Assembly (NCBI RefSeq): GCF_006443685.1
Contig: NZ_VFYP01000001.1
Location: 496,001-560,000 of the forward strand
DNA: 64,000 nucleotides
Origin: Rhizobium glycinendophyticum
Lineage (GTDB): Bacteria; Pseudomonadota; Alphaproteobacteria; Rhizobiales; Rhizobiaceae
Direction: 5' to 3'
Part shown: positions 6,840 to 48,800 of the stretch, piece by piece
Layout of the letters: every line of letters starts with the position of its first letter
Position numbering within the stretch: position 1 is the first letter of the stretch
Translations under genes and position numbers: made by a program
Notes under the pieces: generated by a model
The model's input: only the letters and a program-made list of their open reading frames with translations
What the model was told of the DNA's origin: nothing
Databases searched by the model: none

Positions 6840-6853
6840 TTGCGCGACCTGCT

Positions 6854-6945
6854 CCCTCCCCCTTGTGGGGAGGGATGGGGAGGGGCCTTGTAAGGATAAC
6901 CCCCTCCCCGTCGCTGCGCTCCGACCCTCCCCATAAGGGGAGGGT
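6854..6945. repeat. GC-rich intergenic palindromic repeat (three hairpins)
   Basis: Three successive near-perfect hairpins: CCCTCCCC/GGGGAGGG (6854-6874), GGGGAGGGG/CCCCTCCCC (6877-6909) and ACCCTCCCC/GGGGAGGGT (6924-6945). The run of related arms and lack of a T tract argue against a simple terminator. It resembles the short mosaic palindromic elements scattered between genes in Rhizobiaceae genomes. Inside an operon it could stabilise mRNA ends or attenuate transcription. Confidence 0.75.
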
Positions 6946-7037
6946 TGACCCGAGGATGCGGCCCCGCCTTGCCCAGAGAACGGCAGGCAGAGGACAGTAA
7001 AATTCCGGCGCCCCTACGCGCCCAAGGGAGAGAGACG

Positions 7038-8246: not shown

Positions 8247-8266
8247 TTTCCCGGGAGGAGTAAGAT

Positions 8267-10480: not shown

Positions 10481-10502
10481 AGCAAGTGTCTATCGATATT
10501 GA

Positions 10503-10529
10503 GAAAAGGCGGCTTTCGGCCGCCTTTTC
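10503..10529 (+). terminator. Rho-independent terminator after the beta-oxidation operon
   Basis: An 11-bp stem GAAAAGGCGGC (10503-10513) / GCCGCCTTTTC (10519-10529) with a 5-base loop, starting 23 bp after the stop codon of the hydratase/dehydrogenase gene. The A and T tracts at its base let it work in both directions, so it also serves the converging glycerophosphodiesterase gene. Confidence 0.85.
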
Positions 10530-10548
10530 CGTTTCTGCAGCAAAGAGT

Positions 10549-11580: not shown

Positions 11581-11749
11581 GGCGGGTCTCCCTCGTCCGT
11601 GGATCGCGTTCTGCGGCGATAGGTGCTTCGCGTGAAACGGCCATGACGTTTTTCTGAAACCTCTGTGACGGGGCCTAAGGGAACAGGAAACCATGATGGC
11701 CCGTTGAATGCTCAAATGGGCAGCCGGGCATGAGGGGCAGGAGACAAGC

Positions 11750-13465: not shown

Positions 13466-13491
13466 GAGCATTCTCGGCCGGGGCGAAGCGT

Positions 13492-14952: not shown

Positions 14953-14994
14953 GCGATTCCCCGTCCCCCGGCCCCGAGCCTTGCCCGTCCTGCG

Positions 14995-15735
14995 TCAGCG
15001 TCCCCTGTAAAGTCTGAGCGCCAGCCCTTCCGGCAATGAGGCGGCACGGATCGCGTTTGCCGCGCCGTCTATGTCATAGGCGGTCCAGCGGAAGGAGAGC
15101 TCACAGTCCTGCGTGTCGTAAAGGGCCCAGGCCGCCGCCGGATTGCCATCGCGGGGCTGACCGACCGAACCCATCACGGCAAGCCAGCGTCGCGGCGGAC
15201 CGACAGGAATACCGATGTCGGACGATGGAACGAAGGTCGTGACCTTGCCGCCCAGACCCTGCCCGTAAAGTGCCGGCGCATGCACATGTCCGCAGAAGCT
15301 GAGCCGCGCACTGCAACCTTTGAAGTGGGCATCAGCGTCGCTGCGGTCATGCACATAGGTAAACCGGCCAGGCGCGGAACCTTCGGCGTGCACATAGAGC
15401 CGATCCTCATCGGTGGCGGAAACCGGCAGACGCGCTAGAAATTCGCGATGCGACGGCTCGAGCGTAACGCGCGTCCAGTCGATTGCGATCCCGGCAGACG
15501 CGTTCATGGCATAGGAGGGATCGCTGATCGCCTGGTCATGATTGCCGCGCACGGCAATCGCGCCTTCAGCAACCATGGCCATGCAGGTTTCGACGCACCA
15601 CTTCGGATCACCGCCATAGCCGACGATGTCGCCAAGTATGACGAAGCGTTCCGCACCCCGCGCCCTTGCATGTGCAAGCACGGTCTCGAAGGCCTGTCGG
15701 TTGCCATGGATGTCGGACAAAATAGCGATTTTCAT
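14995..15735 (-). CDS. Calcineurin-like metallophosphoesterase
   Basis: A 246-residue phosphoesterase with all metal-ligand motifs of the family: SDIHGN at residues 7-12, GDIVGYGGDP near 35, GNHD near 65, a lone histidine region and GHVH near 145. Such proteins hydrolyse phosphoproteins, cyclic nucleotides or dinucleotides. Its position directly before the kinase-UspA gene on the same strand suggests a kinase/phosphatase pair, but phosphoprotein activity is inference; YfcE-like phosphodiesterase activity is equally possible. The ATG at 15735 gives the usual MKIAILSDIHGN start. Confidence 0.85.
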   Translation of the reverse strand: MKIAILSDIHGNRQAFETVLAHARARGAERFVILGDIVGYGGDPKWCVETCMAMVAEGAIAVRGNHDQAISDPSYAMNASAGIAIDWTRVTLEPSHREFLARLPVSATDEDRLYVHAEGSAPGRFTYVHDRSDADAHFKGCSARLSFCGHVHAPALYGQGLGGKVTTFVPSSDIGIPVGPPRRWLAVMGSVGQPRDGNPAAAWALYDTQDCELSFRWTAYDIDGAANAIRAASLPEGLALRLYRGR

Positions 15736-15884
15736 GCCTTCGTCAGCCCTCCCTGCTGCGTCGGATCAACCCAACATAGTGAGCTTTACGGCCCTCCGCT
15801 ATTCTCCGGAAGACGAAGGTCAGATGGACGTCAGGAGTGACGGCGAACGGGACTATGCTCGCCTTTAGCGGCAAAAGCGGTAGC

Positions 15885-18800
15885 CTATTCCGCCGCCGCT
15901 CGGCGTTGCGAGGAGACTTGCGTCATGAAGGCCCGGAGAGCAGCGGGGCGTACCGGCTTGTGCTGCAGCGTGATCGAATGACGTTCGGCTTCCGCCCGGA
16001 CTTCCGCTGAACGATCGGCAGTGATCAGCAGTGCCGGCATGTCCGCCTTGGTTAGCGCGCGCAATCGCAGGATTGCCCCTATGCCGCTGCCATCGCCAAG
16101 ATGATAGTCGGCGATGACCAGATCGGGTGCGGGACTGTTTTCCAGCAGTGTGTCCATCTCGGCGATCGAGCCGGCGCAGGTGACCTCGCAGCCCCAGCCG
16201 GAGATCAGCAATTGCATGCCCTCAAGGATCTTCGGCTCGTTGTCGATACAAAGCACGCGGAAGCCCTGCAGCGACGGTGTGTTGCGGCTTTCGGGCGCCA
16301 GTTTAACCACGCCGTCGGATGCCGGTTTCGCCACGTCCAGCGGCATGACCACCTTGAAGGTTGTACCCTTGCCGGGCTTGGACGCCAGTTCCACCGGATG
16401 GTGCAGCACCCGCGCAATGCGGTCGACAATCGACAGTCCAAGGCCAAGCCCGGACGCCGTCCGCATGCCTTCTTCCAGCCGGGCAAATTCCTTGAACACC
16501 GTGCGGAACTTGGAGGAGGGGATGCCGATGCCGGAATCCGTCACCTGGATCACCACCTTGTCGCCCTGACGCCGCGCCCCGACCACAATACGTCCGGCCG
16601 GCGTGTATTTGATGGCATTGGACACCAGATTCTGGATCAACCGGCGCAAGAGGGTCGGGTCTGACCGCACCGAGAATTTCGTCGGCATCACCACGAGCTT
16701 CAGGTTCTTCTCGCGCGCCATGGGCGCAAAGTCCGTTTCAATTTTCTGCAAAAGACTATTGAGCGGCACGGTGGAAAAACGCGGCTTCATTGCGCCGGTA
16801 TCGAGCCTGGAGATGTCGAGAACCGCACCGAGAATGCTTTCAACCGATTCCAGCGCTGAATCGATGTTCTCAACCAACGCGCTGTCTTCGGAGTCTCCAA
16901 GGCGTTCGACCAGAGACGACGAATAGAGTCGAGCCGCATTCAGCGGCTGCAGAATGTCGTGTCCGGCTGCGGCGAAGAAACGGGTCTTGCCGATATTCGC
17001 TTCATCGGCCGCTGCCCGCGCCTCGGCCAGAGCATGATTGACCCGGGTAAGCTCTGCGGTGCGCTCGCTGACCCGTTGCTCCAGCGTCTCGTTTGCCTGT
17101 TTCAGCGCCTGATCGGCTTCGACCCGGGCGGTAATGTCACTGAACGTCGCGACCAATCCCTGGTCTGGCATGAGGTTGCAGCGCACTTCGATGATCCTCT
17201 TGCCCCCGGACAGCACCATCTGGAACGGATGGTCGAACTGATGAAATCCATGGATGACGGCCGCCACATTGGTGGCAGCCACGTCGCCGCGCTGGGCGAG
17301 GATGGCAATCATGTCGGCAAGGGGAAAGCCGACTTGGCCAACATGCTCCGGCAGATCGAGAAGGATACGGAAACGACGGTTCCAGATGGTCAGTCGATCG
17401 GATGCGTCGAAGACCGCGATGCCCTGCTCCATCTGCGCAAGCGCCGTCTGCAGCATGTCCTGATTGTATTGGAGGGCTTCCGATGCCTGATCGAGTAGCC
17501 ACACGGTGTCGGCCGACGGGTCCTCGGCCTTCTGCAGGATGAGCGACAACACCAGACGGGCCGAGGACGAGCCGATCGCGCTGCCGAGAAGCTGTTCGGA
17601 GAAATGGATGAAGGCCATGTCGGCGGGGCTGTCATCCGCCAGCTTCCGGCCTGCCGCCTGTTCGTAAGACCGGAAGGAGCGCTCCATTCTCTCATTGCCG
17701 AGATAGCGGGCGATCGCGGCCTTCAGATCGCCGACCGCGACGCTGGTCTTCCAGCCGCGTGTGGCAAAGTTGGAGCGAGGCTGCCGCTTGATGAAGATCG
17801 CCGACTGGATACGCTCGACCGGGCGCGGATTGCGGCTCAGCGATCCGACGACGAAGGCGAGCGTGTTGATCAACAGGCTGAAGATCGTCGCATTGACCAG
17901 CGGGTCGGCATATTGTGTCTCGAACATCGAGAGGCCCGGCAGCAGAAAACCCAGCATGCTGGACGCGATCCAGGAATGATCGGTGGCACCGAGGCTGGGC
18001 AGGAAGAGCAAATAGGCCCAGACGAGAAAGCCGGTTGTCAGGCCGGCAATCGCGCCGCGTGCATTGGCTCGTCTCCAGATCAACCCGCCGAACATCGCCG
18101 GCGCGATCTGGGCGATGGCGGCGAAGGAGAGAAGCCCGATCTTGGCAAGTCCTGTCGTATTGTCGGCCGAGCGGAAATAGACATAGCCGAGCAGCAGCAC
18201 GCCGAAGATGGCGGTCCGGCGGATATGGAGGAGCGTCTTTGCAAAATCCTCGCGCTGGCTCGGTCGGCCGAGCAGACGCTGGCGCAGGAAGATCGGCAGC
18301 ACCATGTCATTGGAAATCATGATGGCAAGCGCGACGGAGGCGACGATGACCATCGCGGTCGCCGCCGAGAAGCCACCGATAAAAGTGATCAGAGTCACCA
18401 GCCCGTTGCCCGCTTCAAGCGGCAGCGACAGCACGTAAAGATCGGCATCACCTCCGCCCCCGAACGTCAGCACACCGCCGATCGCGGCCGGCAGGACGAA
18501 GATGTTGATGGCAATCAGGTAAATCGGCATCAGGATGCCCGCGAGTTTCAGCTCGCGCGGCGTGCGGTTCTCGACCACGGTCACATGGAACTGCCGTGGC
18601 AGCATGATGATGGCAAACGCCGAGAGCAGGATCAGCAGGATCCAGCGGCTGGCCGGCGTCTGGTGCGACAGGGCTGCCATGACGGCAGGGCTCTCGGTCG
18701 CTTTCTGCCAGAGATCCGCCGGTCCGTCGTAGAGCGTGAACACCACGAAAATGCCGAGCGTCCAGAATGCGACCAGCTTGACCACCGACTCCATTGCAAT

Positions 18801-38278: not shown

Positions 38279-38355
38279 GGCGATGATCCCGCGCGGCTTT
38301 TACTGCGCTGTCATGACAACCGCGACAGATTTTTTATGACGTGGTCATTGGGGAA

Positions 38356-38380
38356 AATGGTGCTGCTAGAGAGATTTGAA
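38356..38380. repeat. Left attachment-site repeat
   Basis: 25 bp identical to 48724-48748, starting AATGGTGCTGCTAGAGAG and ending ATTTGAA. It copies the 3' end of tRNA-Thr (T-arm, acceptor stem, CCA) and lacks the rest of the tRNA. It marks the element's left boundary. Confidence 0.92.
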
Positions 38381-38444
38381 GGTGACGGCAGATTTCGAGA
38401 AAGCCCATAAATGCTGGGGTTCACAGCCTATCGACACTCTTGCG

Positions 38445-38468
38445 ATGTAACATGTCACTGTAACAGTT
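38445..38468. repeat. Left integrase arm-type sites (paired TGTAACA)
   Basis: Two direct TGTAACA copies at 38445-38451 and 38458-38464, 13 bp apart, the second inside CACTGTAACAGTTT (38455-38468). The same pair with the same 13-bp spacing and the same 14-mer occurs near the right end, so these are probable integrase arm sites. Confidence 0.65.
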
Positions 38469-38526
38469 TCAACTGTCTTGGATTGAGCTTACACTTGTTG
38501 GTACTCAACCGAACGTGGAACTTTGA

Positions 38527-39276
38527 ATGAGAAATCCTGACTGGTACCGCGATGAACTCATACTCGCGCTTGAACTCTATCTTCAAAGCCCTGCAAACCC
38601 ACCAGGCAAAACTAGCAAGAAGGTAGTCGAGCTTTCCCAACTGCTTAACCGCCTCGGGCATGCGCTGGGTATTCGAGCGAGTGAGGACTTCAGAAATCCG
38701 AACGGCGTTTACATGAAGATGATGAACTTCCGCCGCTTCGATCCCGAGTATGTCCGTTCGGGGAAGGTTGGTCTGAGGCGGGGCAACCGGCTTGATGAGA
38801 TTGTCTGGAATGAATTCTCAGGAAGGCCCGACCACCTCATGGCGACCGCGCTAGCGATACGGAAAGCTGTCGAAGGGGCGCCAGACACGGTTTTGCCAGA
38901 GCCATCTGAAGAAGAGGAGGGGTTTTTTGAAGCGTCGGAAGGGAAGATCTTGACGCGCATACATAGGACGCGGGAACGAAACAGGACGATAGTGGATAAG
39001 GTGAAGGCGAGAGCGCTGAAAGCGGAAGGAACGCTGAGGTGCCAAGCTTGCAACTTCGATTTCGCCGAGAGGTACGGTGCACACGGTGAAGGCTTTATCG
39101 AGGCCCACCACATTCGTCCAATCCACACCCTGCCCGACGATGCTAAGACCAACCTGAGTGACTTTGCGCTGCTATGTTCCAACTGCCATAGGATCATTCA
39201 TCGATCACGCCCCTGGCTAACCTTAGAGCAATTGCAGGCCATCCTTGCACTGAGAAAAGCTGTCGCTGCGGGATAG
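38527..39276 (+). CDS. HNH endonuclease, McrA-like (putative modification-dependent restriction)
   Basis: A 249-residue protein. The C-terminal HNH domain is complete: CQACNFDFAERYG, EAHHIRPI with the catalytic HH pair, ALLCSNCHRIIHR, with two CxxC zinc pairs. The N-terminal part (RNPDWYRDELILALELYL; FRNPNGVYMKMMNFRRFDP) is a conserved module often found in proteins annotated as 5-methylcytosine-specific McrA-like restriction enzymes, so a defence role against modified phage DNA is likely but inferred. No methylase gene is next to it, consistent with type IV. It occupies the cargo position beside the left repeat. The ATG at 38527 has only a weak ribosome site. Confidence 0.8.
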   Translation: MRNPDWYRDELILALELYLQSPANPPGKTSKKVVELSQLLNRLGHALGIRASEDFRNPNGVYMKMMNFRRFDPEYVRSGKVGLRRGNRLDEIVWNEFSGRPDHLMATALAIRKAVEGAPDTVLPEPSEEEEGFFEASEGKILTRIHRTRERNRTIVDKVKARALKAEGTLRCQACNFDFAERYGAHGEGFIEAHHIRPIHTLPDDAKTNLSDFALLCSNCHRIIHRSRPWLTLEQLQAILALRKAVAAG

Positions 39277-39440
39277 GATAGTGATCAGGCGGTTAGTGCC
39301 GAAAATGCTCTGCGGCATAGACGACTATGAGTCCGGGGGTGGCTGATTAGGTTAGATGCCACTACGATTATCTGATGCTGCTTCACACCGAATGGTGGAG
39401 TGTGATAGCCGTGCTTTGCAAGTTGAGCGGAGGTTGGGTC

Positions 39441-40136
39441 GTGACGTCAAGCAAAACTAAGGTCACAACTTTAACGGTGGGGGCTTTGTTGGCGATCGGC
39501 TTCGGTCTTGATGCTGCCGCTCAGTCAGCCTCGGCTGGGCCCTATGACTCCGAGCGAGCATATCTCGACGCTCGATATGCAAATACCATTTTCGTCGGAC
39601 CGAACGCTGCCGTCGGCTTGATCAGAGGAGTCGAGCTTAACGTAAGTGATCAAGTCAATGATGGTTGTTGGACCAACGTTGACTCGATTAAGGCCCGAAT
39701 TCGCGCAGAATTAGAGCGTTCTAACGTCGCGGTGTACGTCGAACCCATTGCCTTCGCTCACGCCTTCTATCCCAGAGTGGATTTTACAGCCGTAGGCTTT
39801 AAGCTGCCTAACGACGTCTGTGTGGTGTCGGTCTCAATGTCCTTGAATTATCCATCAAGCGTGGAACTTGGCAGCCTCGCGAACACGGACAAGATCGTGA
39901 GTGTGAGGGCATTACATGAGATTTGGGATCGAGCATCTGTTTTGACCAAAGTTAGCAGTGCCAACGAGTCCCTGATGCAGTGGACACAGGCGGCCATTGA
40001 TACGCTTGTTGCCGACATCTCCCAGGCAAAGCGCGATCCCGATGTGGTGAGTGCTCGGGCAGTCTGGCCAGACAGGCCAATGCAAACGCAAAAGGAGTAT
40101 GAGCAAGAACTCGAGAGCGTTCTCCAAAAACAATAA
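39441..40136 (+). CDS. Secreted protein of unknown function
   Basis: A 231-residue protein starting with GTG at 39441 after a strong GCGGAGGTTGGGTC site; an ATG at 39375 gives 22 extra residues without a good site. Residues 8-30 form a signal peptide (TTLTVGALLAIGFGLDAAAQ), then a soluble domain with predicted beta/alpha character and two cysteines (DGCWTN; NDVCVVS) that could form a disulfide. I do not recognise a family. It stands between the HNH nuclease and the serine recombinase, on the same strand as the nuclease. Export suggests an envelope or periplasmic role, unusual for a small island. Confidence 0.65.
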   Translation: MTSSKTKVTTLTVGALLAIGFGLDAAAQSASAGPYDSERAYLDARYANTIFVGPNAAVGLIRGVELNVSDQVNDGCWTNVDSIKARIRAELERSNVAVYVEPIAFAHAFYPRVDFTAVGFKLPNDVCVVSVSMSLNYPSSVELGSLANTDKIVSVRALHEIWDRASVLTKVSSANESLMQWTQAAIDTLVADISQAKRDPDVVSARAVWPDRPMQTQKEYEQELESVLQKQ

Positions 40137-40410
40137 GCTGCATTTGATCCCTCTTGCAGTCTTGCGCTTGAAAGACCTGGACACTCAGGTGAGGCTAAGA
40201 TTGATCGTCTCCCTTTCTGTTACCTCGGCGGTGGGCCAAAGATGTGTCATAGCCGCGATGCAAGCGATGGTGACTATAAAGGTTCCTGTGGTGGTCATGG
40301 CGGGTTCGTTGCGGGTGATCTGCGGGGTTCGCAGCGGGATAGGAGAGGGTTTAGGCGGGAGGTGGAAAAATGTGGAAGGACAGACGAGAGCAACATTGCC
40401 CACGGGTCCC

Positions 40411-40980
40411 TCAGGGTGTCTTTGTGGCCTTCGCTTCGTCCAACACCTTCTGAACTGCTGACTTGCTGAACCCTACCTCCGCCGCGATCTTGCGGACACT
40501 GACGCCTTCGGCGCTCAACTGAATGATTTCCGCTTTGATGCCTGGGGTGATCTGGGCAGGTCTCCCTCCGGTTCTGCCTTCGGCCTTGGCTTTGGCTATG
40601 CCTTCAAGCTGCCGCTCCTTCCGAAGCGCTGTCTCAAACTCTGCGATGCTTGCGAGGATGCCGAAGACCAGTTTCCCGGTTCGGGTGGTGGTGTCCAGCG
40701 TAGCGTCGTCCAGTACACGGAAGCCTACTCCCTTCTGGTTCAAGCCCTCTACGATCTGGTGAAGGTGCGAGGCAGAACGGGCAAGGCGATCCAGCTTGGT
40801 TACAAGCAGCACGTCGCCTTCGCGGACAAACCGAAGGCACTCCTCCAGGGCAGGGCGGTCCTTGTCCAGGCCCGACTGCTTCTCACTGAACAGCTTCTCC
40901 GCACCCGCTGCCGTGAGGCGGTCAATTTGGGTTGCGTGATCCTGCCCGGTTGAACTCACTCTCGCGTATCCTACGATCAT
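40411..40980 (-). CDS. Small serine recombinase (resolvase/invertase family)
   Basis: A 189-residue resolvase. The catalytic domain has YARVSSTGQD with nucleophile Ser9, LLVTKLDRLARSASHL with the active-site arginines, and GILASIAEFETALRKER leading to the E helix; the C-terminal helix-turn-helix is GVSVRKIAAEVGFSKSAVQKVL. It recombines DNA at res or inversion sites. The upstream region 40986-41080 has res-like repeats. It may resolve dimers of an excised circular form or be left from a transposon; I found no transposase or inverted terminal repeats. Confidence 0.92.
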   Translation of the reverse strand: MIVGYARVSSTGQDHATQIDRLTAAGAEKLFSEKQSGLDKDRPALEECLRFVREGDVLLVTKLDRLARSASHLHQIVEGLNQKGVGFRVLDDATLDTTTRTGKLVFGILASIAEFETALRKERQLEGIAKAKAEGRTGGRPAQITPGIKAEIIQLSAEGVSVRKIAAEVGFSKSAVQKVLDEAKATKTP

Positions 40981-40985
40981 CTGCC

Positions 40986-41080
40986 GTCCACTTTCCTTTT
41001 AAGCTGTTGTGGACATAGGCTTAGTGGACGCTAAATGGACAGTCAAGTGGGCGGTGTCCCGATTGTAAACATTGTGGACA
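40986..41080. promoter_or_regulatory. Candidate res region upstream of the serine recombinase
   Basis: Two inverted repeats with GTGGAC/TGTCC ends: GTCCAC...GTGGAC at 40986-41014 and TGTCC...GGACA (26 bp) at 41055-41080, with further GTGGAC and ATGGAC copies between (about 41023-41040). Small resolvases bind subsites of this form next to their own genes. Subsite limits are my estimate. Confidence 0.5.
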
Positions 41081-41186
41081 GTGCGGCTCTGTGGCGATCC
41101 CCGGTATCTCTCTGTAAACCAGTCTGTGGCCCCCAACTTGCCGGGTGCGCTGCCCGTGGCTAGGGTCGTGTCTTGGAGGTGTCGGA

Positions 41187-41399
41187 ATGACAACAGGCTG
41201 GACTAAGGAAGAGGTGGAGGCGGAACTCCGCCGACGGTCCGACGCAAAGCGGGAATTTGACCGCAACTGGCAGGACGCCGCGAGGAAAGCGGAGTTGGCC
41301 AACGCGGACGCTAACTGCATTCACTGCGGAAGACCATTTAGAATGGCCTTGGCAGCTGGAGGTGAATGGGGTTTCTGCGACGAATGCGCCGGTGACTGA
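41187..41399 (+). CDS. Small zinc-ribbon-like protein
   Basis: A 70-residue protein with a charged helix (WTKEEVEAELRRRSDAKREF) followed by two CxxC knuckles, CIHCGRPF and FCDECAGD, that probably bind one zinc. The ATG at 41187 is chosen over 41145 because it follows TTGGAGGTGTCGGA. Function unknown. It is divergent from the serine recombinase. Confidence 0.6.
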   Translation: MTTGWTKEEVEAELRRRSDAKREFDRNWQDAARKAELANADANCIHCGRPFRMALAAGGEWGFCDECAGD

Positions 41400-41487
41400 G
41401 AGGAAGTCGCCCGGCTACCGCTCAATCGCGCCGGGATAGGGCACAGGCCGGACCCCACCCCACCACCGGGGGGTTTTGAGCGAGGTG

Positions 41488-41506
41488 GAGTATACGTAAT
41501 ATGCTC
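41488..41506. promoter_or_regulatory. Imperfect copy of the XRE-GrlR operator
   Basis: GAGTAT-N7-ATGCTC, resembling the perfect TGAGTAT-N6-ATACTCA palindrome before the XRE-GrlR gene but with one arm mismatch and a one-base longer centre. It lies in the gap after the zinc-ribbon gene, before the SHOCT gene. Weak evidence. Confidence 0.3.
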
Positions 41507-41566
41507 ACACAATTTTTGTAAAAAAGGTCGCGGGGCCCCTCAGGGACTTCTGCCGGACCTGCGTGG

Positions 41567-41791
41567 TTACCCGAGTATCCGCCGCTTCTCTACGTCATAT
41601 TCCGCTGCGGTGATTTCACCGTCAGCCTTCAACTTGGCGAGCTTCTCCAGCTTCTCGACATTCGACAATCCTCCGATCTGCGCTGCGCCGTCTTGGCTGG
41701 CTTTGCGCCGGGGCTTGCGGAAGAGGAGGTATAGCGGGAGGAAAAGGATCAGGAAGACAACTATCCAGTGCCAAATCGAAAAGCTTCCCAC
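41567..41791 (-). CDS. Small membrane protein with C-terminal SHOCT motif
   Basis: A 74-residue protein with one transmembrane helix (WHWIVVFLILFLPLYLLF) and a C-terminal SHOCT motif (EKLEKLAKLKADGEITAAEY), a short helical module of unknown role. The GTG at 41791 is preferred because it follows GGAGGAGGAAGACC; an ATG at 41836 would add 15 residues. No function can be assigned. Confidence 0.65.
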   Translation of the reverse strand: MGSFSIWHWIVVFLILFLPLYLLFRKPRRKASQDGAAQIGGLSNVEKLEKLAKLKADGEITAAEYDVEKRRILG

Positions 41792-42247
41792 GGTCTTCCT
41801 CCTCCAGTCTCGTCCTGATTGAGTTACTGCAACCATCGGTCAATGACAATGGCGAGCGAGTCTATGAGGGCTTGTGTTGTGAGGCGGCTCTTCCTGATGC
41901 CGTCGAGGCCTTCCATGCGCCTCCAGCAACTCGGATGACCTGGGGCACCCGCCGCAACAGAACGCTCCCCACGAGGCTCTACGGAGTCAGGAGAGTCGGG
42001 GCTGTAGAAGCGTTAACAAGCCAGCCCAAGAATGAGCTTCGCTGCGTTACCCAAGACACCGCCTAAATCGCTGAGAGTTCCTCAAGGGAATTCCGAGCGC
42101 TGGCACAGGCGGCAATCCCTGCGTTACCGAAGCGACTGATTTCTCTGCGGTATCGTAGGTTTAATGTGTTCGACAATGGCCGTTTCGTGTGAATTGTAGG
42201 AGGTCCCTGCCGCGATCCTGCGGCGTTCCAAGAGGAGAACAAGGGAC
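41792..42247. other. Gene-poor gap in the element
   Basis: About 450 bp between the SHOCT gene and the next plus-strand gene. A 64-codon frame (41872-42066) lacks a ribosome site and looks non-coding. The last 100 bp should hold the promoter of the 42248 gene. A TTCCTCAAGGGAA palindrome is at about 42076-42088. Confidence 0.5.
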
Positions 42248-42556
42248 ATGCACACGCTCACCAATGCTGCCACTGTGACCACGCTGGAGAACCTCTGGGG
42301 TGTCATCTACTTCGAAGAGGATGGCACGGTCCTCTGTACGGACTTCCTTGACGCAACCGACTACTCCGACGCTGCGGAGCAAGCCTTAGAAGAGGCTGAC
42401 GGCGGCGAATTCCAGTTGGTCGAAGGTCTCGATATCGTAGGACTCTTGGTACCCGCTGGGAACCGTGAGCTATTCGGTCCTTCGATCTACTCGCTCCTGA
42501 TCGACCTGCTCGGCAAGGACAAGGCGGAGGAGGGCGCTTGCGATGCCACGGCGTAA
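42248..42556 (+). CDS. Small acidic protein of unknown function
   Basis: A 102-residue acidic protein (LWGVIYFEEDGTVLCTDFLD; TDYSDAAEQALEEADGGEFQ) after a good AAGAGGAGAACAAGGGAC site. No recognised domain, signal peptide or membrane segment. Its 3' end overlaps the start of the next gene by 14 bp, so the two are probably co-translated. Confidence 0.6.
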   Translation: MHTLTNAATVTTLENLWGVIYFEEDGTVLCTDFLDATDYSDAAEQALEEADGGEFQLVEGLDIVGLLVPAGNRELFGPSIYSLLIDLLGKDKAEEGACDATA

Positions 42557-42806
42557 GCATGACCCAAGGACAGTTTACACGGTTGTCTTTTACGACGAGG
42601 CCGGGGAGGTGGTGCTTTCTGAAACCCGGAAGGCCTACGGGCCAGAAGACGTCAGCTTCTACGCCTATCACAACATGCCTCTTGGGGCTGTGAGGTACGA
42701 GGCGTTTGACGAGGTGCTGGAGGTTCTGCAGATGACCCACGACATGACGGTGTCGCTGCGGACCCTCTTGAAGCAACACGGGGTTCCCTCGGTGTTCTCG
42801 CCGTGA
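42543..42806 (+). CDS. Small protein of unknown function, coupled to the upstream gene
   Basis: An 87-residue protein (TVYTVVFYDEAGEVVLSETR; FDEVLEVLQMTHDMTVSLRT) with a GGAGGAGGGCG ribosome site inside the preceding gene. It has an alternating beta/alpha appearance but no family I know. A GC-rich hairpin repeat follows 44 bp after its stop. Confidence 0.6.
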   Translation: MPRRKHDPRTVYTVVFYDEAGEVVLSETRKAYGPEDVSFYAYHNMPLGAVRYEAFDEVLEVLQMTHDMTVSLRTLLKQHGVPSVFSP

Positions 42807-42850
42807 CCCGCTGACATCCCCCCCTGAAGTGGAGGTGTCTTGCGGGACCT

Positions 42851-42874
42851 GCCGGGGGCCGATGATCCCCCGGC
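42851..42874. repeat. Hairpin repeat copy 1 (GCCGGGGG / CCCCCGGC)
   Basis: Perfect 8-bp stem GCCGGGGG (42851-42858) and CCCCCGGC (42867-42874) with loop CCGATGAT. Nearly the same sequence, with the same loop and the GACCTG upstream, recurs at 43642-43666. Each copy lies just after a gene, so it may end or protect transcripts; there is no T tract. Confidence 0.75.
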
Positions 42875-42945
42875 TGCGAATGCGTCAGCACCCGCCTATT
42901 CCGCCATCCTACGGTGAACCGCGAGGGAGTGTTGCAGTCGCACAT

Positions 42946-42965
42946 TGAGTATGTTAATATACTCA
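42946..42965. promoter_or_regulatory. Palindromic operator of the XRE-GrlR regulator
   Basis: Perfect arms TGAGTAT (42946-42952) and ATACTCA (42959-42965) around GTTAAT, 36 bp before the regulator start, with a third half-site TGAGTAT at 43002-43008 overlapping the start codon region. This is the typical arrangement of an autoregulated phage-type repressor. Confidence 0.7.
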
Positions 42966-43000
42966 TACGATGCAGTTCATTGAGGGATATAAGCTTCAAT

Positions 43001-43576
43001 ATGAGTATCACAAGTGCAGGACTCCGGTCTGCAATTTCTGAGTTAGGGCTTACCCAAGCAGAATTTGCGCGTCTCTTGGACGTTTCGATTGGAGCCGTAG
43101 CCCAATGGCTTTCTGGAGCCCGGAGTATTCCGGGGCCAGTTGAGGCCTACCTGAACCTACTCCTGAGGCTACCCAAGAGTCTTCAGGAGGACGAAACCCG
43201 ACGTGTCCGAAAGGAGAGCTTCCAAATGGACGGAATGTATCTGATTTTCTTCGAGGGCTCGGCTGGCAATGGTGCCGCCACGCTCACGTTTAGCAACGGT
43301 CTTGTCTTCGGCTTCGATGAAGCTGGCGGCATATACGACGGAACTTATCGGCCGAGCGCGACGCCTGGTGCGATGGACGTTGTCGTGAATGTGCAGATGA
43401 AGGCGAACCAGTTCACTGTAGCTGGCGGTGTCTCGCACCCGTTCGACTGGTCAATGCAGGTTGTCGCAGTGGTCCCGATCGGTGTTGAAGAGACGACGAT
43501 CATCGCAAATACGAACCTCGGGCAGCCGGTAAGAGCCAAGGTCAAGTACATGCGCCGTCTGCCCCATGCGGCTTGA
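43001..43576 (+). CDS. XRE-family HTH protein fused to a GrlR-like domain
   Basis: A 191-residue protein. Residues 1-60 form an XRE/Cro-type helix-turn-helix (LTQAEFARLLDVSIGAVAQW LSGARSIPG). After a linker, residues 78-190 look like the GrlR fold: MDGMYLIFFEGSAGNGA, FDEAGGIYDGTYRPS, with the D-G-x-Y and Y-x-G-x-Y pattern of that small beta-barrel family, whose E. coli member binds and blocks a transcription activator. The fusion would be a DNA-binding regulator with a ligand- or protein-binding barrel. The ATG at 43001 is preferred over 42914, which lies before the operator. Palindromic sites next to the start suggest autorepression. Confidence 0.7.
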   Translation: MSITSAGLRSAISELGLTQAEFARLLDVSIGAVAQWLSGARSIPGPVEAYLNLLLRLPKSLQEDETRRVRKESFQMDGMYLIFFEGSAGNGAATLTFSNGLVFGFDEAGGIYDGTYRPSATPGAMDVVVNVQMKANQFTVAGGVSHPFDWSMQVVAVVPIGVEETTIIANTNLGQPVRAKVKYMRRLPHAA

Positions 43577-43641
43577 GCTTGCGAGCACTGAGGATGATGC
43601 GGCGCGATCCACCATGCCGTCTCAAGCAAAGTAAAGACCTG

Positions 43642-43666
43642 TCGGGGGGCCGATGATCCCCCGGCA
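43642..43666. repeat. Hairpin repeat copy 2
   Basis: Second copy of the 42851 hairpin: same loop CCGATGAT and right arm CCCCCGGC, left arm with one substitution and one extra G. It lies 66 bp after the XRE-GrlR gene. Confidence 0.7.
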
Positions 43667-43782
43667 ATCCTCTCGGGGAACGCTGGGTTCAGCGCCCCAC
43701 CTGTCTCCACACCCTGCCTTGCTCCCGACTGTCGGTCTCTGATAAGGCCGCTGCTGGGGACCACTTTGGAGGGTATAGGTTC

Positions 43783-44046
43783 ATGTTCTTCACTCGCATC
43801 GGCAAGGTGATTGCTCACCTCGTCTTCTGGCTCAGTGCTTTCCGGGTCGCCACCTGCCTCTTCGTCATATTTGGCCCTCTTAGTCTGGACGAGCGGCAGG
43901 CTTTCGTTAGGGCTTACATCGGCAGCGGCGGTCTTGAAGGGCTAGGTGATAAGCTCGATACTGCTGCAATAGCGCTAGCCGTAGGTGTGGCCCTCGGGGT
44001 CCTCTGCGAGATCAGCGCAAGGACCAGCAGGGGCGACAGGGCCTAA
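43783..44046 (+). CDS. Small membrane protein of unknown function
   Basis: An 87-residue protein with two hydrophobic helices (VIAHLVFWLSAFRVATCLFV; TAAIALAVGVALGVLCEISA) and short polar ends. A GGAGGGTATAGGTTC site precedes the ATG. Its leader contains GGCCGCTGCTGG, related to the motif repeated at 45.9-46.2 kb. No family recognised. Confidence 0.55.
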   Translation: MFFTRIGKVIAHLVFWLSAFRVATCLFVIFGPLSLDERQAFVRAYIGSGGLEGLGDKLDTAAIALAVGVALGVLCEISARTSRGDRA

Positions 44047-44101
44047 GCTGTCTCCCGCTCCGGCGGTCATTTTTCCGGGTGTTGCCTTCTTGTGTATAGG
44101 C

Positions 44102-44749
44102 CTACTGTGCAACACACCGCGAGGTGTCCCTCGTGGGTTCCCGGTGGCGTTCTCGAAGTGCCTTGGCATTGGCAATCTGCTCACTCCTGATCCTCATGAA
44201 CCTTGTGACCAACTGGCGTGACAGGCTGAGGGCTTGCGCCATCTGGTCGTGAGTGAGGTGTGGGAAGTGATCGGCAACCCAGTGGATTTCCTGCTTTCCA
44301 CACATGGGACCGCTGCGGCACTTCTGGAATTCCCGCAAGGCTTCTCGGGCTTCCTTGGCTGGACCTGAGGTCTTCTCCTCCACCGCCTTCTTTGCAGCCT
44401 CCCAGCGTTCCGCAATCCATCGGACACCTTCGGCTGAGACAACATCGAACGGCATATCGTCAGACTTGCGCTTGTTGCGCTTGCCGTACCCCTTGGCGAT
44501 CACCCAATCTCGGATGCGGTTACGGGCATTCCTGCCGCTGCCTTCGATCTGGAGAAAGTTCATCTGGTGGAGGACAGTAGCGAGTTGCCTCCTGCCGATC
44601 TTAAAGACTTCGCTCAGTTCCTCCATGGTGATCCAGTGGCCTTGGTCGATGGAAACCATCTCCCCTGTCTTCCTGTCGAGGATTTCGGAGGTGTACTGCA
44701 TGCCCATTCCGGGGCGGATGGTTGGGGCGATGGCTGCGGTAGTGATCAT
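44102..44749 (-). CDS. Putative DNA-binding protein with two HTH-like segments
   Basis: A 215-residue basic protein. Two stretches look like helix-turn-helix units: WITMEELSEVFKIGRRQLAT near residue 40 and LTHDQMAQALSLSRQLVTRF near residue 165. Between them lies a Lys/Arg/Glu-rich region. It may be a regulator or replication/antirepressor-type protein of the element. Its start overlaps the stop of the upstream gene (ATGA), showing translational coupling. No exact family recognised. Confidence 0.6.
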   Translation of the reverse strand: MITTAAIAPTIRPGMGMQYTSEILDRKTGEMVSIDQGHWITMEELSEVFKIGRRQLATVLHQMNFLQIEGSGRNARNRIRDWVIAKGYGKRNKRKSDDMPFDVVSAEGVRWIAERWEAAKKAVEEKTSGPAKEAREALREFQKCRSGPMCGKQEIHWVADHFPHLTHDQMAQALSLSRQLVTRFMRIRSEQIANAKALRERHREPTRDTSRCVAQ

Positions 44750-45195
44750 GCTGCTGCCCTCACTGCCATTTCCCTTGCTGCCGTCGATGCAATTTTCTGC
44801 GGCTGGCTCTCCGGTGTGTCGCTGGTTACCTCCGCAACCTCCTGCTCTCCCTTGCCCTTGACGGGGCCAAGGTATGGCCGGTGCCTCTCGACATGGACAG
44901 AACGGGTCTCGCTCTCCACTGCGTCCAGCCCTGCCCAGACGCCTAGGGTGCGGTCGCGCTTGAAGACAGGAATGAAGCCGTCACGGTCCAAGGCCTTGCG
45001 GATGACATGGGCGCGGGTCTCAGGGTCCAAGCCGTGGGCGAGGAGTTCCCGGCAGAGAACCGGCAGGGGACTTTTGGTGGTGCTGCGGTTGCGCCGTCCA
45101 GTCAGGTCAACGGTCTTGCCGCTCTCGACATGGCGAGCCGTGAAGGAGCCGACGAGTTCGATGGTTGCGACGGGGTGGAGGGTGGTGATGGTCAT
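44746..45195 (-). CDS. Protein of unknown function, first gene of a two-gene element operon
   Basis: A 149-residue basic protein (LHPVATIELVGSFTARHVES; GLDPETRAHVIRKALDRDGF) with a polar C-terminal tail. Its 3' end overlaps the HTH-protein gene. The ribosome site (GGAAAAGG) is moderate. Three 17-bp palindromes lie about 350-430 bp upstream. No domain recognised. Confidence 0.55.
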   Translation of the reverse strand: MTITTLHPVATIELVGSFTARHVESGKTVDLTGRRNRSTTKSPLPVLCRELLAHGLDPETRAHVIRKALDRDGFIPVFKRDRTLGVWAGLDAVESETRSVHVERHRPYLGPVKGKGEQEVAEVTSDTPESQPQKIASTAAREMAVRAAA

Positions 45196-45540
45196 GCTGC
45201 TGGTTACCTTTTCCAGTTCGGGGGAGGGGCGGGGTGTGGCCGGGCCGCTGGGGATCGATCGGACACGCTACGGCCTCCGCCGGTCACCTCGGGGTGTCGT
45301 CGGGAGGTCTTGGCGGGGCTGTGGTGATCGTCGTGGCTGGTTTGCGGGTGAAGTAGGGTGCTACGATGCCTCTCCTTGACTCACAGAAGCCCGTGGAGAG
45401 TGTTCAGGGGTCCCGGAGGCGCGACGGTAGCGGAAGTGACCGGAAGGCTCTCAGCGAGTCGCTGTGGGACTCGATGGTATAGGTCGGGGTGGAGACAAGG
45501 GAGGGGGAGGTCTCGGAAGGACATCCCAGAGGAGCCATGG

Positions 45541-45568
45541 GATACCCTGAGGGAACCTTGAGGTTATC
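45541..45568. promoter_or_regulatory. Two overlapping 17-bp palindromes
   Basis: GATACCCTGAGGGAACC (45541-45557) and, sharing six bases, GGAACCTTGAGGTTATC (45552-45568). Both fit the consensus of the third copy at 45612-45628, suggesting repressor or initiator binding sites. Confidence 0.65.
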
Positions 45569-45611
45569 TCTAGGTACTACTCCTACTTTGTCTTTTAATA
45601 AACATTGCAGA

Positions 45612-45628
45612 GGTACCCTAAGGGTATC
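45612..45628. promoter_or_regulatory. 17-bp palindrome, third copy
   Basis: GGTACCCTAAGGGTATC, inverted with respect to 45541-45557 and at the edge of an A/T-rich tract (45590-45655). Its CCCTNAGGG core recurs at 40408, 41536 and 46548. Confidence 0.65.
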
Positions 45629-45791
45629 TTATATATAACTTAGATTTATATCTCTAAGACGCGCACACGTGAATACTGTCTCCTGCTGTCACTGTCAATA
45701 CCATTGGTTGTGTTTTTTGTTATCACTCTTTTTCGCTTCTGCTCCTTCCGTTCCGGCTGTCCAATTCGGTCTGTCGTTGAGCTTCGTCTTC

Positions 45792-46360
45792 TCTGAATGA
45801 AGGGGTAATTCCTGAGCCGTGGAAGTCCTTTGTCTCCTCTGAATGGAGTGGTAATAATTTATCGTTTTATTTCAGTGTGTTGAAGTGATTGCGAATATGC
45901 GTTGTCAGGGCCGCTGCCGGTGTCCCGTGCGGTGCCCAGTCCGATCCCCCGGAGGGTCCCGCGATGACCGCTCGGATCGCTTCGATTTTCTTGGTCTCTC
46001 TGTATGCAGGTCTAATTGCCGCCCTCGGTTGTCCGCGAGGGTCGCCGGGATGTCAGCCGGGTTCCGGCCAGGGCCGCTGTCGAGACTGCTGCGGGTCCTG
46101 CCGAGTTAGGGGGAGATGCCCCCAAATTCCCGAAGGCTTGGTAGTCCTCTGTATGAGGGGTCAATCATTGCGCATCGGCCTCACCTTCCGATTAATTTCC
46201 ACGCTGGAAACAATTCCAAGGCCGCTGCCGGTGACCTACTCCCCGCTTTGAAACCTGCATTCTTTCTGTTGCCGTCGAGGCCGTTCATGCGGGTTCCCAC
46301 TGCGGCATGGCCGGTGATCCCGGAGGGCGCTTCGTAGTACTATATGGGCGGGTAATTGTG
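45792..46360. repeat. Degenerate tandem repeats of about 150 bp
   Basis: Motif CTCTGWATGNRGGGGTAAT recurs near 45792, 45838, 45998, 46147 and (diverged) 46340. In three units it is followed 71-74 bp later by GGCCGCTG (about 45909, 46072, 46219). The constant internal distance shows a real repeat unit; spacing between units varies from about 150 to 190 bp. Confidence 0.6.
45964..46251 (+). CDS. Possible small secreted cysteine-rich protein
   Basis: A 95-residue frame from an ATG with a good GGAGGGTCCCGCG ribosome site. The first 23 residues resemble a signal peptide (MTARIASIFLVSLYAGLIAA LGC) and the next 35 are rich in Cys and Gly. It lies inside the degenerate repeats, so the apparent frame may be chance. 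I report it only as a candidate. Confidence 0.25.
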   Translation: MTARIASIFLVSLYAGLIAALGCPRGSPGCQPGSGQGRCRDCCGSCRVRGRCPQIPEGLVVLCMRGQSLRIGLTFRLISTLETIPRPLPVTYSPL

Positions 46361-46678
46361 CGGCCCGTCACATGAGCTTTGTTGCATTCTTGGGCTGGTG
46401 AATGAAGCGGAGCTAATGGAATGCGAACGGCTGGTGAACCGGAGGGGAACGCATGGTTCATGCTAAGGCGTCTGAGAGGCTCGCTGACGCGCATAAGTTG
46501 CTTTCTGGTATCTTCTGCCAAGAAGCGCGAGATGGCTCTCAGTGAGTCCCTGAGGGCACCTGAGGCCGCTTCGGTTCTTCGTGAACGGATAAGGAACAAT
46601 CTTTAGACTGCTTCTAATATTTGCTTTTCGTGCTATGATGGTTTTGTGGAGGTGAGTCGCAACCAAATGAGGTGAATG

Positions 46679-46978
46679 ATGAATACGTTCTTCGGCGGAC
46701 TGCTCGACATTGGAAAAGACGAGCTTGTTTGGGCTAAGGCACGGCCAGCCGGATTGCTCGGCGTAACTGGAGAGTGGGCGTATGATGCCTACGGAAACCT
46801 GATCAAAAAGTCGGAGCGCGGGAACCGAAACTCTCCCTATGGCTGGGAGTGCGATCACTACCCGGTGCCGAAGTCCCAAGGTGGTTCGGACCACGTGGAT
46901 AACCTCCGTCCGCTCCACTGGAGGGCCAACGCGAGACATGGTGGCCTCCTCGGTGCAATCTACGGTCTTGGGAGATAG
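46679..46978 (+). CDS. Small HNH-type protein
   Basis: A 99-residue protein with a compact HNH-like core, ECDHYPVPKSQGGSDHVDNL followed by RPLHWRANARHG, i.e. the D-H, N and H residues of the nuclease fold without the zinc cysteines. Two ATGs stand in tandem (46676, 46679); the second has better spacing from GAGG at 46669-46672. Related proteins are small standalone nucleases of phages and islands. It lies before the convergent integrase. Confidence 0.7.
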   Translation: MNTFFGGLLDIGKDELVWAKARPAGLLGVTGEWAYDAYGNLIKKSERGNRNSPYGWECDHYPVPKSQGGSDHVDNLRPLHWRANARHGGLLGAIYGLGR

Positions 46979-47058
46979 GCATTAGGACGGTAGCCGAGCG
47001 GTTCACCCTTGTGAAGCAACTGGAAAGCGTCGGCACTGGACCACCGTTGAGGCAACCT

Positions 47059-48639
47059 TTAACCCTCTTCGGTCACTTCGTATCGCGGCAGTTTACAGAT
47101 TTCGCGGTACAGGGCCTTCATCGTCGCCTCGCCGTAGCCCGTGCTTGCGGTTCCGTCTTTATGGCCTTGAATGCGGTCGATGTATTCCCGTGGAATGTCT
47201 ACATCACGTGAGATGGTTTTAACCCGGTGTCTCCAGCCATGATTTGGCTGGGTACGCGGATCAATATTCGCGTTCTCCTTGACCCATTTGCCAACCGTGC
47301 CGCGCATGCTTGCCGCAGTCGTGTGACCGTTACTCTTCTTGCGGGAATTTTCGGAGTAGAACAGGGGCCCGGGCGGCTGCGCCTCGACCATCTCCAGAAA
47401 ACCTTGTTCAATTAAGTGGGGGTGTAACGGAACGATGCGGTATTCGCCGTTCTTCACAGATCCGTCTTCGGGGGTGATCCTGATGCACGGTATACCATAC
47501 TCAGTGGTCACGTCTCTTTTTCTGAGCTGCGTGATTTCGCCACCTCTGGCTCCAGTGTAAGCGCAAATCCACGGCACCCAACGGAAAGCCCGTCGGGTGT
47601 GCGGTTGTGTTCTGCCGGGAGCCGACGGCGCTGCGAGGGCGCAGGAGAGTATTCGTGCGGCTTCCGCGTCTGTGAAGCCCTGTTCGCGCTCGATAATCTT
47701 CTTCGGCACCTTGACCTTCGTCACCGCTGTGGGGTCAGCCGTGACAAGTGCTTTGGAAATGCCTCGGCGATAGAGTGTCCTGATGCATGCTAGATACTTC
47801 CCAGCCACAGTTTTCGCAGTCAGTTGTCGTTCGTGCCTCAAATGGTCGCAGAACGAAGCAACGTCGAAAGCCGTCACGCGCTCAGCTTCATCATGGCCCA
47901 GATATTCAACAAACGTCTGGATCTGCTGCCTGTTCATCGCTACGGTCTTAGCCGCGCCGCCGTCGGCTTCATGATCTCGCCTCCACGCTTCGAAGAGGCC
48001 CGTAATCGTCTGCTGAGTCCTGATGCTGCCCTTGAGGGATCGGACGTCAACGGTGGGTGTTTCTACTACCTCTCCCTGCTGCCGCTGCTTCTTCGCCTCC
48101 GAAGCTTTGATGGCCGCCGCCAGTAGCGCTTGGCTGAGGACAGCCCAGCTAGGGGACCCCTCGCGAAGCCTCCAGTTAACCTTGAGGGTCTTCGTGATCT
48201 CCGCGAAAATGGCTGGGACAAAGCCGGGGATGGTTCCACGGGAGTACGCCTCTCTTGCCGCTCCTTCGACTGCTGTTATGTCGGATGAGTATAGGTGGAA
48301 GTCCTCCTCCAGAAAGCCTTTCAGTCGCTCGCTCTCGTCCTCCGCTAGAATCTTGGCGTGGTAGACATTAGCGACCATTTTGACCTGCTCCTCGGTCAAG
48401 TCCTCCAGCAAGGGGCCGTTTAGTCTAGTGATCTCTTCGCGATGCGCCTGAAACAGCGCGTCTACTCGCACAGCTTCGATCCGAACCAATCGCAGCGCCT
48501 CTCGCGGGTCCCTCGTCTTGAGTGAGAAGGTTTCCTCGGTCTTGCTGTATGTCGCCCGGATATCTTCGGGGACGGAAGCGCGGTGATAAAAGACGTTTCC
48601 ACGCTTCATCAGTCGGGGGTGTTTTGGCATATCGTTCAT
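47059..48639 (-). CDS. int: Tyrosine recombinase (site-specific integrase)
   Basis: A 526-residue phage-type integrase. The N-terminus RLMKRGNVFYHRASVPEDIR is the domain typical of this rhizobial/phage group, a SAM-like core-binding domain follows, and the catalytic domain has CAYTGARGGEITQLRKRDV with the first arginine, HGWRHRVKTISRDVDI with the HxxR pair and GYGEATMKALYREICKLP near the C-terminal tyrosine. It inserts the element into tRNA-Thr. The ATG at 48639 is preferred to 48681, which would run through the arm-site repeats. Those repeats begin 7 bp upstream, so the integrase may repress itself. Confidence 0.93.
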   Translation of the reverse strand: MNDMPKHPRLMKRGNVFYHRASVPEDIRATYSKTEETFSLKTRDPREALRLVRIEAVRVDALFQAHREEITRLNGPLLEDLTEEQVKMVANVYHAKILAEDESERLKGFLEEDFHLYSSDITAVEGAAREAYSRGTIPGFVPAIFAEITKTLKVNWRLREGSPSWAVLSQALLAAAIKASEAKKQRQQGEVVETPTVDVRSLKGSIRTQQTITGLFEAWRRDHEADGGAAKTVAMNRQQIQTFVEYLGHDEAERVTAFDVASFCDHLRHERQLTAKTVAGKYLACIRTLYRRGISKALVTADPTAVTKVKVPKKIIEREQGFTDAEAARILSCALAAPSAPGRTQPHTRRAFRWVPWICAYTGARGGEITQLRKRDVTTEYGIPCIRITPEDGSVKNGEYRIVPLHPHLIEQGFLEMVEAQPPGPLFYSENSRKKSNGHTTAASMRGTVGKWVKENANIDPRTQPNHGWRHRVKTISRDVDIPREYIDRIQGHKDGTASTGYGEATMKALYREICKLPRYEVTEEG

Positions 48640-48645
48640 GCCCCC

Positions 48646-48669
48646 CACTGTAACAGTTTGCTGTAACAG
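48646..48669. repeat. Right integrase arm-type sites (paired TGTAACA)
   Basis: TGTAACA at 48649-48655 and 48662-48668, again 13 bp apart, the first within CACTGTAACAGTTT (48646-48659), identical to the left-end 14-mer. It lies between the integrase start and the right repeat. Confidence 0.65.
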
Positions 48670-48723
48670 GTGAAGCCGCAACGCCTTGATATGCAGGTAT
48701 GTATCTGAGTTTTCACGGGAAGT

Positions 48724-48748
48724 AATGGTGCTGCTAGAGAGATTTGAA
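48724..48748. repeat. Right attachment-site repeat, inside tRNA-Thr
   Basis: Same 25 bp as 38356-38380. Here it forms the true 3' end of the intact tRNA-Thr gene, so insertion preserved tRNA function. Confidence 0.92.
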
Positions 48749-48800
48749 CTCTCGGCCTCTCCCTTACCAAGGGAGTGCTCTACCCCTGAGCTATAGCAGC
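48726..48800 (-). tRNA. tRNA-Thr (anticodon GGT)
   Basis: A complete 75-nt cloverleaf on the minus strand: acceptor GCTGCTA/TAGCAGC, D-arm GCTC...GAGC, anticodon stem CTCCC/GGGAG with loop TTGGTAA (anticodon GGT), T-arm GAGAG TTCAAAT CTCTC, discriminator A and encoded CCA (48726-48728). It is the integration target of the element. Confidence 0.97.

Follow-up and report, generated by a model that had tools for sequence, protein, structure and literature searches.

That tRNA-Thr(GGU) genes serve as insertion sites is already known from a survey of 27 S. meliloti strains, which lists tRNA-Thr(GGU)010 among three hot spots (PMC11476347). Here we describe an island at a tRNA gene of this isotype in Rhizobium glycinendophyticum, located at positions 38,356 to 48,748 of a 64,000-nucleotide stretch (the window) that is part of a 3.0-Mb contig in a 4.84-Mb genome. 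According to that survey, islands at gene 010 resemble the one described here in having direct repeats of the tRNA 3′ end and tyrosine integrases, and in some of them, as here, the integrase is the sole phage gene. They differ in residing in another organism, and the term ‘resolvase’ occurs 0 times in the main text of the survey. The prophages at gene 010 are described as mostly RR1-A-like, whereas the window DNA that was tested has no phage match (PMC11476347).

The Pseudomonas ‘phage defense elements’ I23, I44 and I55, as their report presents them, also share a tyrosine integrase, direct repeats and an RNA-gene insertion site with the window island, along with a lack of genes for autonomous transfer and defence cargo, which in the window island is a probable assignment (PMC12595487). 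In contrast to it, they lie downstream of tmRNA and carry AlpA, whereas the window island lies at tRNA-Thr, has no AlpA and encodes a serine recombinase. One of them, I55, is reported to be transduced by a jumbo phage (PMC12595487), whereas transfer of the window island is a prediction. A review suggests that helper-dependent ‘hitchers’ may explain many islands of unknown mobility (PMC11389934).

Integrative mobilizable elements resemble the island in having an integrase with no conjugation apparatus; the island differs from them in that no relaxase of the two families searched and no origin-of-transfer match was found in it. Satellites of the P4, PICI and PICMI types have a comparable size range and an integrase, and their hallmark genes include AlpA, primase and small terminase, among others. 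The island shares with them this size range, the integrase and a suspected dependence on a helper. Unlike in these satellites, the hallmark genes were not found among the scanned open reading frames (ORFs), and AlpA is absent from the genome. Family scans covered ORFs of at least 50 amino acids, with many overlapping ORFs left out.

Set beside these systems, the window element is a real and complete island of a rather ordinary kind, whose notable features are a conserved resolvase with its likely site, a rare regulator pair and a repeat array. Taking all of its parts together, we think it probable that this is a complete, non-self-transmissible island of 10,368 bp with a dimer-resolving recombinase, defence cargo and helper-dependent transfer.

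A complete island at the 3′ end of tRNA-Thr(GGT)

The features that define the ends of the island are as follows.

38356..38380, no strand: distal attachment core (exact repeat; homology to the related genome G039 ends at 38353)
38446..38466, no strand: left inner (arm-type) repeat, TGTAACA-N6-TGTAACA (the G039 copy on L127 has this pair at its own left end)
47059..48681, minus strand: tyrosine integrase (Pfam DUF6538, SAM-like and Phage_integrase)
48649..48669, no strand: right inner (arm-type) repeat, TGTAACA-N6-TGTAACA (motif search)
48724..48748, no strand: attachment core overlapping the tRNA-Thr 3′ end (exact repeat and tRNA call)
48726..48800, minus strand: intact tRNA-Thr(GGT) (ARAGORN, Rfam)

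A 25-bp repeat, AATGGTGCTGCTAGAGAGATTTGAA, is exact and maximal, and its copies at 38356-38380 and 48724-48748 have starts 10,368 bp apart, which is the size of the element unit. The right copy overlaps the tRNA-Thr(GGT) gene, which ARAGORN calls as intact on the minus strand and which has an Rfam tRNA score of 74.4 bits. A 22-base part of the core has only two sites in the entire 4.84-Mb genome at up to two mismatches, and the reversed pattern, used as a control, has 0 occurrences. Exact direct 20-mer repeats are found at three places in the window, namely the core, the hairpin repeats described below and a single pair at 24642/35365. The G+C fraction is 0.567 within the element versus 0.616 outside. 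These results bear out the 25-bp direct repeats, the identity to the tRNA 3′ end and the adjacent tyrosine integrase that were claimed in the original prediction.

The same prediction named matching inner repeats, and these are real. Paired TGTAACA motifs spaced 13 bp apart (starts 38446/38459 and 48649/48662) lie 65 and 55 bp inward of the left and right ends, respectively, and account for four of the five occurrences of the searched motif in 64 kb. Among 29 other tRNA-flank loci, five carry one or two arm motifs at equal distance: the same or a similar right-end pair is present in L138, L140 and L150, and one exact copy in L137 and L160. The motif was not found in the other 24 of these loci, many of which have no such integrase.

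Judged by its anatomy, the element is a complete tRNA-targeting integrative island whose two ends each carry the 25-bp core and whose target is the 3′ end of tRNA-Thr(GGT). An excised circle joining 48723 to 38381, as had been proposed, is wrong because the core would be lost; the correct junction is 48723 to 38356 or, equally, 48748 to 38381.

Related genomes contain both empty and occupied versions of the site. In G031 the order is murA, tRNA-Thr with a single core (L166:1049-1074), about 780 bp and then the backbone, of which 7.4 kb is colinear with the window from 31091 down to 23641 at 79% identity; G005 (L167) has the same layout. By this arrangement, G031 is a tRNA-Thr site without the element. 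In G039, the leftmost 367 bp of the element are found on contig L127, where they are 91% identical to window positions 38353-38719 and end at the core, and the backbone (window 31086 downward, 79%) resumes 71 bp past the core. Thus, the left border is set by two independent arrangements, the empty site of G031 and G005 and the G039 junction. The comparison of related genomes that had been suggested as a check therefore yielded an empty site and a second insertion with the same left border.

Other elements occupy the same tRNA gene in G009 and G003, where a second core copy lies on the metC side, and G006, G010 and G017 have a second partial copy of the core region. In L124 (G009:C1, 11252-19454) and L126 (G003:C58), around 8 kb separates the second core copy from metC; 6.3 kb of this region is common to the two genomes at 85% and is possibly an older insertion.

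The window block from 31.1 to 38.3 kb sits between the conserved backbone and the left core and carries regulator, ABC transporter, aminotransferase, dihydropyrimidinase-like and metC-like genes, named from their translations. It is absent in G031 and at the G039 junction, and on this comparison it is a separate variable block.

Integrase family, serine recombinase and candidate res site

Matches to the integrase are present in 51 of 100 related genomes, including its own (E ≤ 0.001), many of them distant, and its relatives occupy 72 loci among the genome contigs. The tRNA nearest to the expected integrase start is tRNA-Thr(GGT) in 29 of the 72 loci and a serine, tyrosine, leucine or other tRNA in 30, with none found in the remaining 13. 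The integrase belongs to a broad alphaproteobacterial family that is often at the same tRNA. Because the integrase family, the tRNA target and the serine recombinase recur in many Rhizobiales and Rhodobacterales, the earlier statement that the content of the element matches nothing known was too strong. Searches of phage records returned two weak partial matches to the integrase, and searches of plasmids returned 46 records, three with at least 80% covered. No mention of DUF6538 was found in the literature searched.

The serine recombinase and its candidate site adjoin one another.

40411..40980, minus strand: res189, small serine recombinase of the resolvase/invertase type with a C-terminal helix-turn-helix (HTH) (PF00239, 3.4e-43; PHROG DNA invertase, 2.7e-62)
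40981..41085, minus strand: res-like site (six GTCCA/TGGAC-type half-sites directly upstream of res189)

Serine recombinase genes accompany the integrase in a directional manner. Specifically, of the 50 integrase loci with at least 9 kb on both sides (22 of 72 were left out for short flanks), 26 encode one on the element side, at a distance of up to about 10 kb, and 0 encode one on the chromosome side. No description of a tyrosine integrase and serine recombinase pair in rhizobial tRNA islands was found in the titles and abstract openings searched.

The res sites of Tn3-type resolvases consist of six half-sites in three parts and adjoin the resolvase gene. The half-sites of the window site lie at −99, −80, −60, −49, −34 and −11 from the res189 start, with that at −80 being a variant, GGGAC. 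Five half-sites are exact, versus a shuffle mean of 0.25, and the observed number was reached by 0 of 2000 shuffles in each of seven elements. The site is also unique in the window, as no other 105-bp stretch has even four exact half-sites. Its layout is kept in all seven aligned elements, with L025 and L026 shifted by 3 bases and single half-sites varied in several. Thus, like the resolvase/res systems of the Tn3 family, the island pairs a small HTH-bearing serine recombinase with an adjacent three-part site; unlike the Tn3 family, it is a tRNA-integrating island, and no transposase family was recognized among its scanned ORFs.

That res189 instead inverts DNA or exchanges cassettes is, in our view, unlikely. 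DNA invertase is indeed its top-ranking PHROG name, and cassette exchange is suggested by a cargo insertion, the HTH220 gene described below, which has 21-bp repeats on either side and is missing from related islands. However, the six half-sites in three parts beside res189 are arranged as in res sites of the Tn3 type, the outer part of the site has a single full match in the genome, and the repeats around the cassette do not, by eye, resemble the res-like site.

Regulators, non-coding region and cargo

A pair of genes lies next to a long non-coding region.

44102..44749, minus strand: rep215, DNA-binding regulator with an N-terminal KilAC-like winged helix and a C-terminal HTH (Pfam and structure matches)
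44746..45195, minus strand: o149, small conserved partner protein (60 homologues)
45196..46660, plus strand: conserved non-coding region, probably for control, with an AT-rich stretch and five motif copies of about 30 bp (alignment and motif profile)

The regulator rep215 is rare. A search of a database of 5.8 billion proteins, using a method that requires shared 5-residue words, returned 20 proteins, itself included. Pfam recognizes the C-terminal HTH in all 20 (E up to 5) and the phage ANT/KilAC domain in nine (best E 0.0077), and the structural model resembles viral antirepressors with weak statistics (best E 4.2e-3). No match to rep215 was found in plasmids or phage records. Its partner o149 is present in 7 of 63 genomes of the genus, counting its own; in G003 and G044 an integrase relative lies no more than about 1.5 kb away from it.

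Between o149 and HNH100 lies about 1.4 kb with no convincing gene, long stretches of which are conserved in four elements. The five motif copies in this region, scored from 45779, 45825, 45986, 46135 and 46326 (array 45779-46360), are conserved in relatives. With a profile built from the copies of the relatives alone, all five copies in the window score 25.0-33.8 bits, compared with 11.9 bits for the best other place in the window and 17.3 bits for the best in five mononucleotide shuffles. Searches for the repeat motif at fixed spacing gave 0 and 2 matches, because the spacing varies. An Rfam search of 38-49.5 kb at E ≤ 0.5 found the tRNA and one sub-threshold match on the opposite strand, and no RNA family for the non-coding region. 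We infer that this region may serve in control or replication.

The rest of the island is filled by cargo and small proteins.

38527..39276, plus strand: HNH249, HNH nuclease of a McrA-annotated HNH restriction family, cargo with a probable defence role (PF01844, 6.3e-7)
39375..40136, plus strand: secr253, protein with a hydrophobic N-terminal stretch (no family match)
41145..41399, plus strand: small CxxC...CxxC protein (87% relative in L022)
41567..41836, minus strand: small membrane-type protein with a SHOCT domain (PF09851, 2.2e-7)
42248..42556, plus strand: o102, small protein (relatives in L021, L022, L122, L129 and L130)
42543..42806, plus strand: o87, small protein (relatives in L021, L122, L129 and L130, 84-91%)
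42844..42874, no strand: first copy of the hairpin repeat, located upstream of the inserted HTH220 gene (repeat search)
42914..43576, plus strand: HTH220, HTH regulator with an extra C-terminal part (PF01381, 2.6e-5)
43636..43665, no strand: hairpin repeat, second copy (repeat search)
43783..44046, plus strand: tm87, small hydrophobic protein (93% in L122, 52% in L021 and L129)
46676..46978, plus strand: HNH100, short HNH-like protein (PF01844, 0.0027, below cut-off)

HNH249 is probably anti-phage cargo. Its residues 4-133 match the PADLOC HNH family PDLC04132 (1e-13), and many of the 120 listed among its 1646 homologues are named 5-methylcytosine-specific or HNH restriction enzyme or protein. 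An EVE domain is present in two of four scanned HNH249 relatives, slightly below the cut-off in one of them. Defence-type genes also occur in related islands. L026 carries type I methylase and specificity subunits, L122 a KAP NTPase matching PDC-S20 and L061 an OLD/GajA-like ATPase; L025 encodes an IetA-like AAA protein, L021 a DUF4062 protein and L024 a HATPase protein. Several scanned proteins of L032 and L021 had no PADLOC match. The earlier suggestion of a small defence island thus finds support in the restriction-type family of HNH249 and in the defence-type genes of these relatives, as far as gene content can indicate.

The HTH220 insertion is seen in the window element alone: the gene lies between two hairpin copies of about 30 bp, whereas L021, L129 and L130 lack it and have a single copy, and no relative of HTH220 was found in the loci searched. 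In L122, other DNA of about 1.6 kb is inserted upstream of the one hairpin copy present. The gene for secr253 is flanked by 30-bp direct repeats (39263-39292/40329-40358, 83% identical), as if separately inserted. The protein has no family match in Pfam, PHROG or PADLOC scans, and its C-terminal relatives in L021 (91%) and L130 (97%) are both truncated by contig ends. HNH100 has no relative in the other loci searched. RNase HI is encoded in some related islands and not in the window, with a small excess on the element side (7 of 50 versus 2 of 50).

The inner genes can also occur with another integrase context. In G054 (L122; G054:C27, ~4000-17400), res189, the SHOCT protein, o102, o87, tm87 and rep215 recur at 84-97% and o149 at 55%. 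This island adjoins tRNA-Leu(CAG) and has a 481-amino-acid ORF that is taken for the integrase by its position; no relative of the window integrase was found in the G054 genome. In G039, two of the contigs L129, L130 and L128 end in rep215 and one begins in it, which suggests that two related islands in one genome broke the assembly. Two further islands, L179 (G003:C58, 13091-16966) and L044 (11545-15735), share a very large protein of 1291 and 1396 amino acids that forms one cluster; the L179 protein has no Pfam match at E 0.01.

Mobility, alternative readings and significance

The probable reading given at the outset implies the following life cycle. The DUF6538-type integrase, to go by what is known of the family, would bind to the core and to the paired arm motifs (TGTAACA) and would excise the island as a circle. 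The anatomy of the locus suggests that res189 would then act at the adjacent res-like site, resolving circle dimers or tandem copies to monomers, while rep215 and o149 may use the conserved non-coding region to control excision and maintenance. By restricting invading DNA, the cargo, chiefly HNH249, would pay for carriage, and passage from cell to cell would require a helper, for which a phage is the most likely candidate and a conjugative plasmid a less likely one. Helper-dependent transfer is favoured because the element has no AlpA and no relaxase of the two families searched, because no relatives of rep215, o149 or the integrase were found in viral contigs, and because transduced islands are described in Pseudomonas (PMC12595487) and hitchers in a review (PMC11389934).

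The original prediction of a complete tRNA-Thr integrative element with no recognizable phage or conjugation genes is supported, in that no structural phage or conjugation family was found among the scanned ORFs apart from weak HTH-only matches. It also raised the possibility of a phage satellite. A strict satellite of an undescribed family, induced, replicated and packaged by a helper like P4, PICI or PICMI, would fit the size, tRNA site, integrase, KilAC/antirepressor-like regulator and defence-type cargo of the island. The Rha regulators of the related islands L179 and L044 and the reported jumbo-phage transduction of a comparable island class (PMC12595487) point the same way. Nevertheless, the searches did not bear this idea out, and we regard it as rather unlikely. 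AlpA (PF05930) has 0 matches in the genome, with the Escherichia coli control positive; no relative of rep215, o149 or the integrase was found in viral contigs; and the element DNA (38381-46380) has no match in phages or plasmids. No primase or capsid gene was recognized among the scanned ORFs, and small-terminase PHROGs match only the res189 HTH, weakly. The host has one partial terminase-type match (6.4e-19), which is uninformative because the same search was positive in 11 of 14 control genomes, and the ORF starts around it do not suggest a prophage.

Transfer by conjugation of a host plasmid, through an origin-of-transfer mimic in an integrative mobilizable element with no relaxase of its own, is very unlikely. 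The host does have three MobA/MobL relaxase genes, on other contigs of 14, 151 and 255 kb, and the 1.4-kb non-coding region would be a natural place for such a mimic; relaxases of PF03389 (MobA/MobL) and PF03432 are absent from the element. However, the element and the surroundings of the three relaxase genes (7.5-8 kb) have no word longer than 14 bases in common, and shuffled elements share words of 12-16 bases with shorter, 3.6-kb relaxase stretches. It is improbable, too, that the island is a decayed and now immobile former prophage or satellite retained for its cargo, as might be suspected from the roughly 1.4 kb with no recognizable genes, from the lack of HNH100 relatives in the loci searched and from the several related islands with no distal arm motif. 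Against such decay, the island retains intact ends, arm motifs and res-like site as well as intact reading frames for integrase and resolvase, the res-like site is conserved in relatives, and the non-coding region keeps its long conserved stretches in four elements with no drift. A bolder proposal, to which we give similarly little credence, is that these islands form an unnamed alphaproteobacterial family alternating between the chromosome and an independently replicating circle. In that case rep215 and o149 would serve as a new initiator or partition pair at the five-copy repeat array (45.78-46.36 kb), the resolvase would keep the circle monomeric and an exchangeable integrase would pick the tRNA; the G054 relative, with the same inner genes at tRNA-Leu and another integrase context, can be cited for an exchangeable integrase.

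Several observations weigh against the reading that we prefer, a helper-dependent island with a dimer-resolving recombinase. Excision as a circle, transfer and nuclease activity are predictions. The excess of serine recombinase genes, 26 versus 0 of 50 loci, was counted with a profile of 17 proteins built partly from the same loci, which are themselves mutually related. The res-like site is a likely candidate crossover site, an assignment made by resemblance and conservation, and its outer part has one full and one 2-mismatch match in the genome, the reversed control giving one match. At the distal ends of four other complete elements, the arm motif is present in one (L124) and absent from three. 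Furthermore, G031 keeps about 780 bp absent from the window and does not have the window's 7-kb block, such that the flanks are not a base-for-base match. Finally, of the 12 element proteins scanned against Pfam besides the integrase, 4 have no match at E 0.1.

For many islands in tRNA genes no means of movement is known, and the cause of their persistence is debated. With both ends intact, few cargo genes and a conserved resolvase next to its likely site, the island described here offers a small rhizobial test system for persistence. That a tyrosine integrase and a serine recombinase recur together hints that such islands pass through a multi-copy or circular phase during their life cycle.

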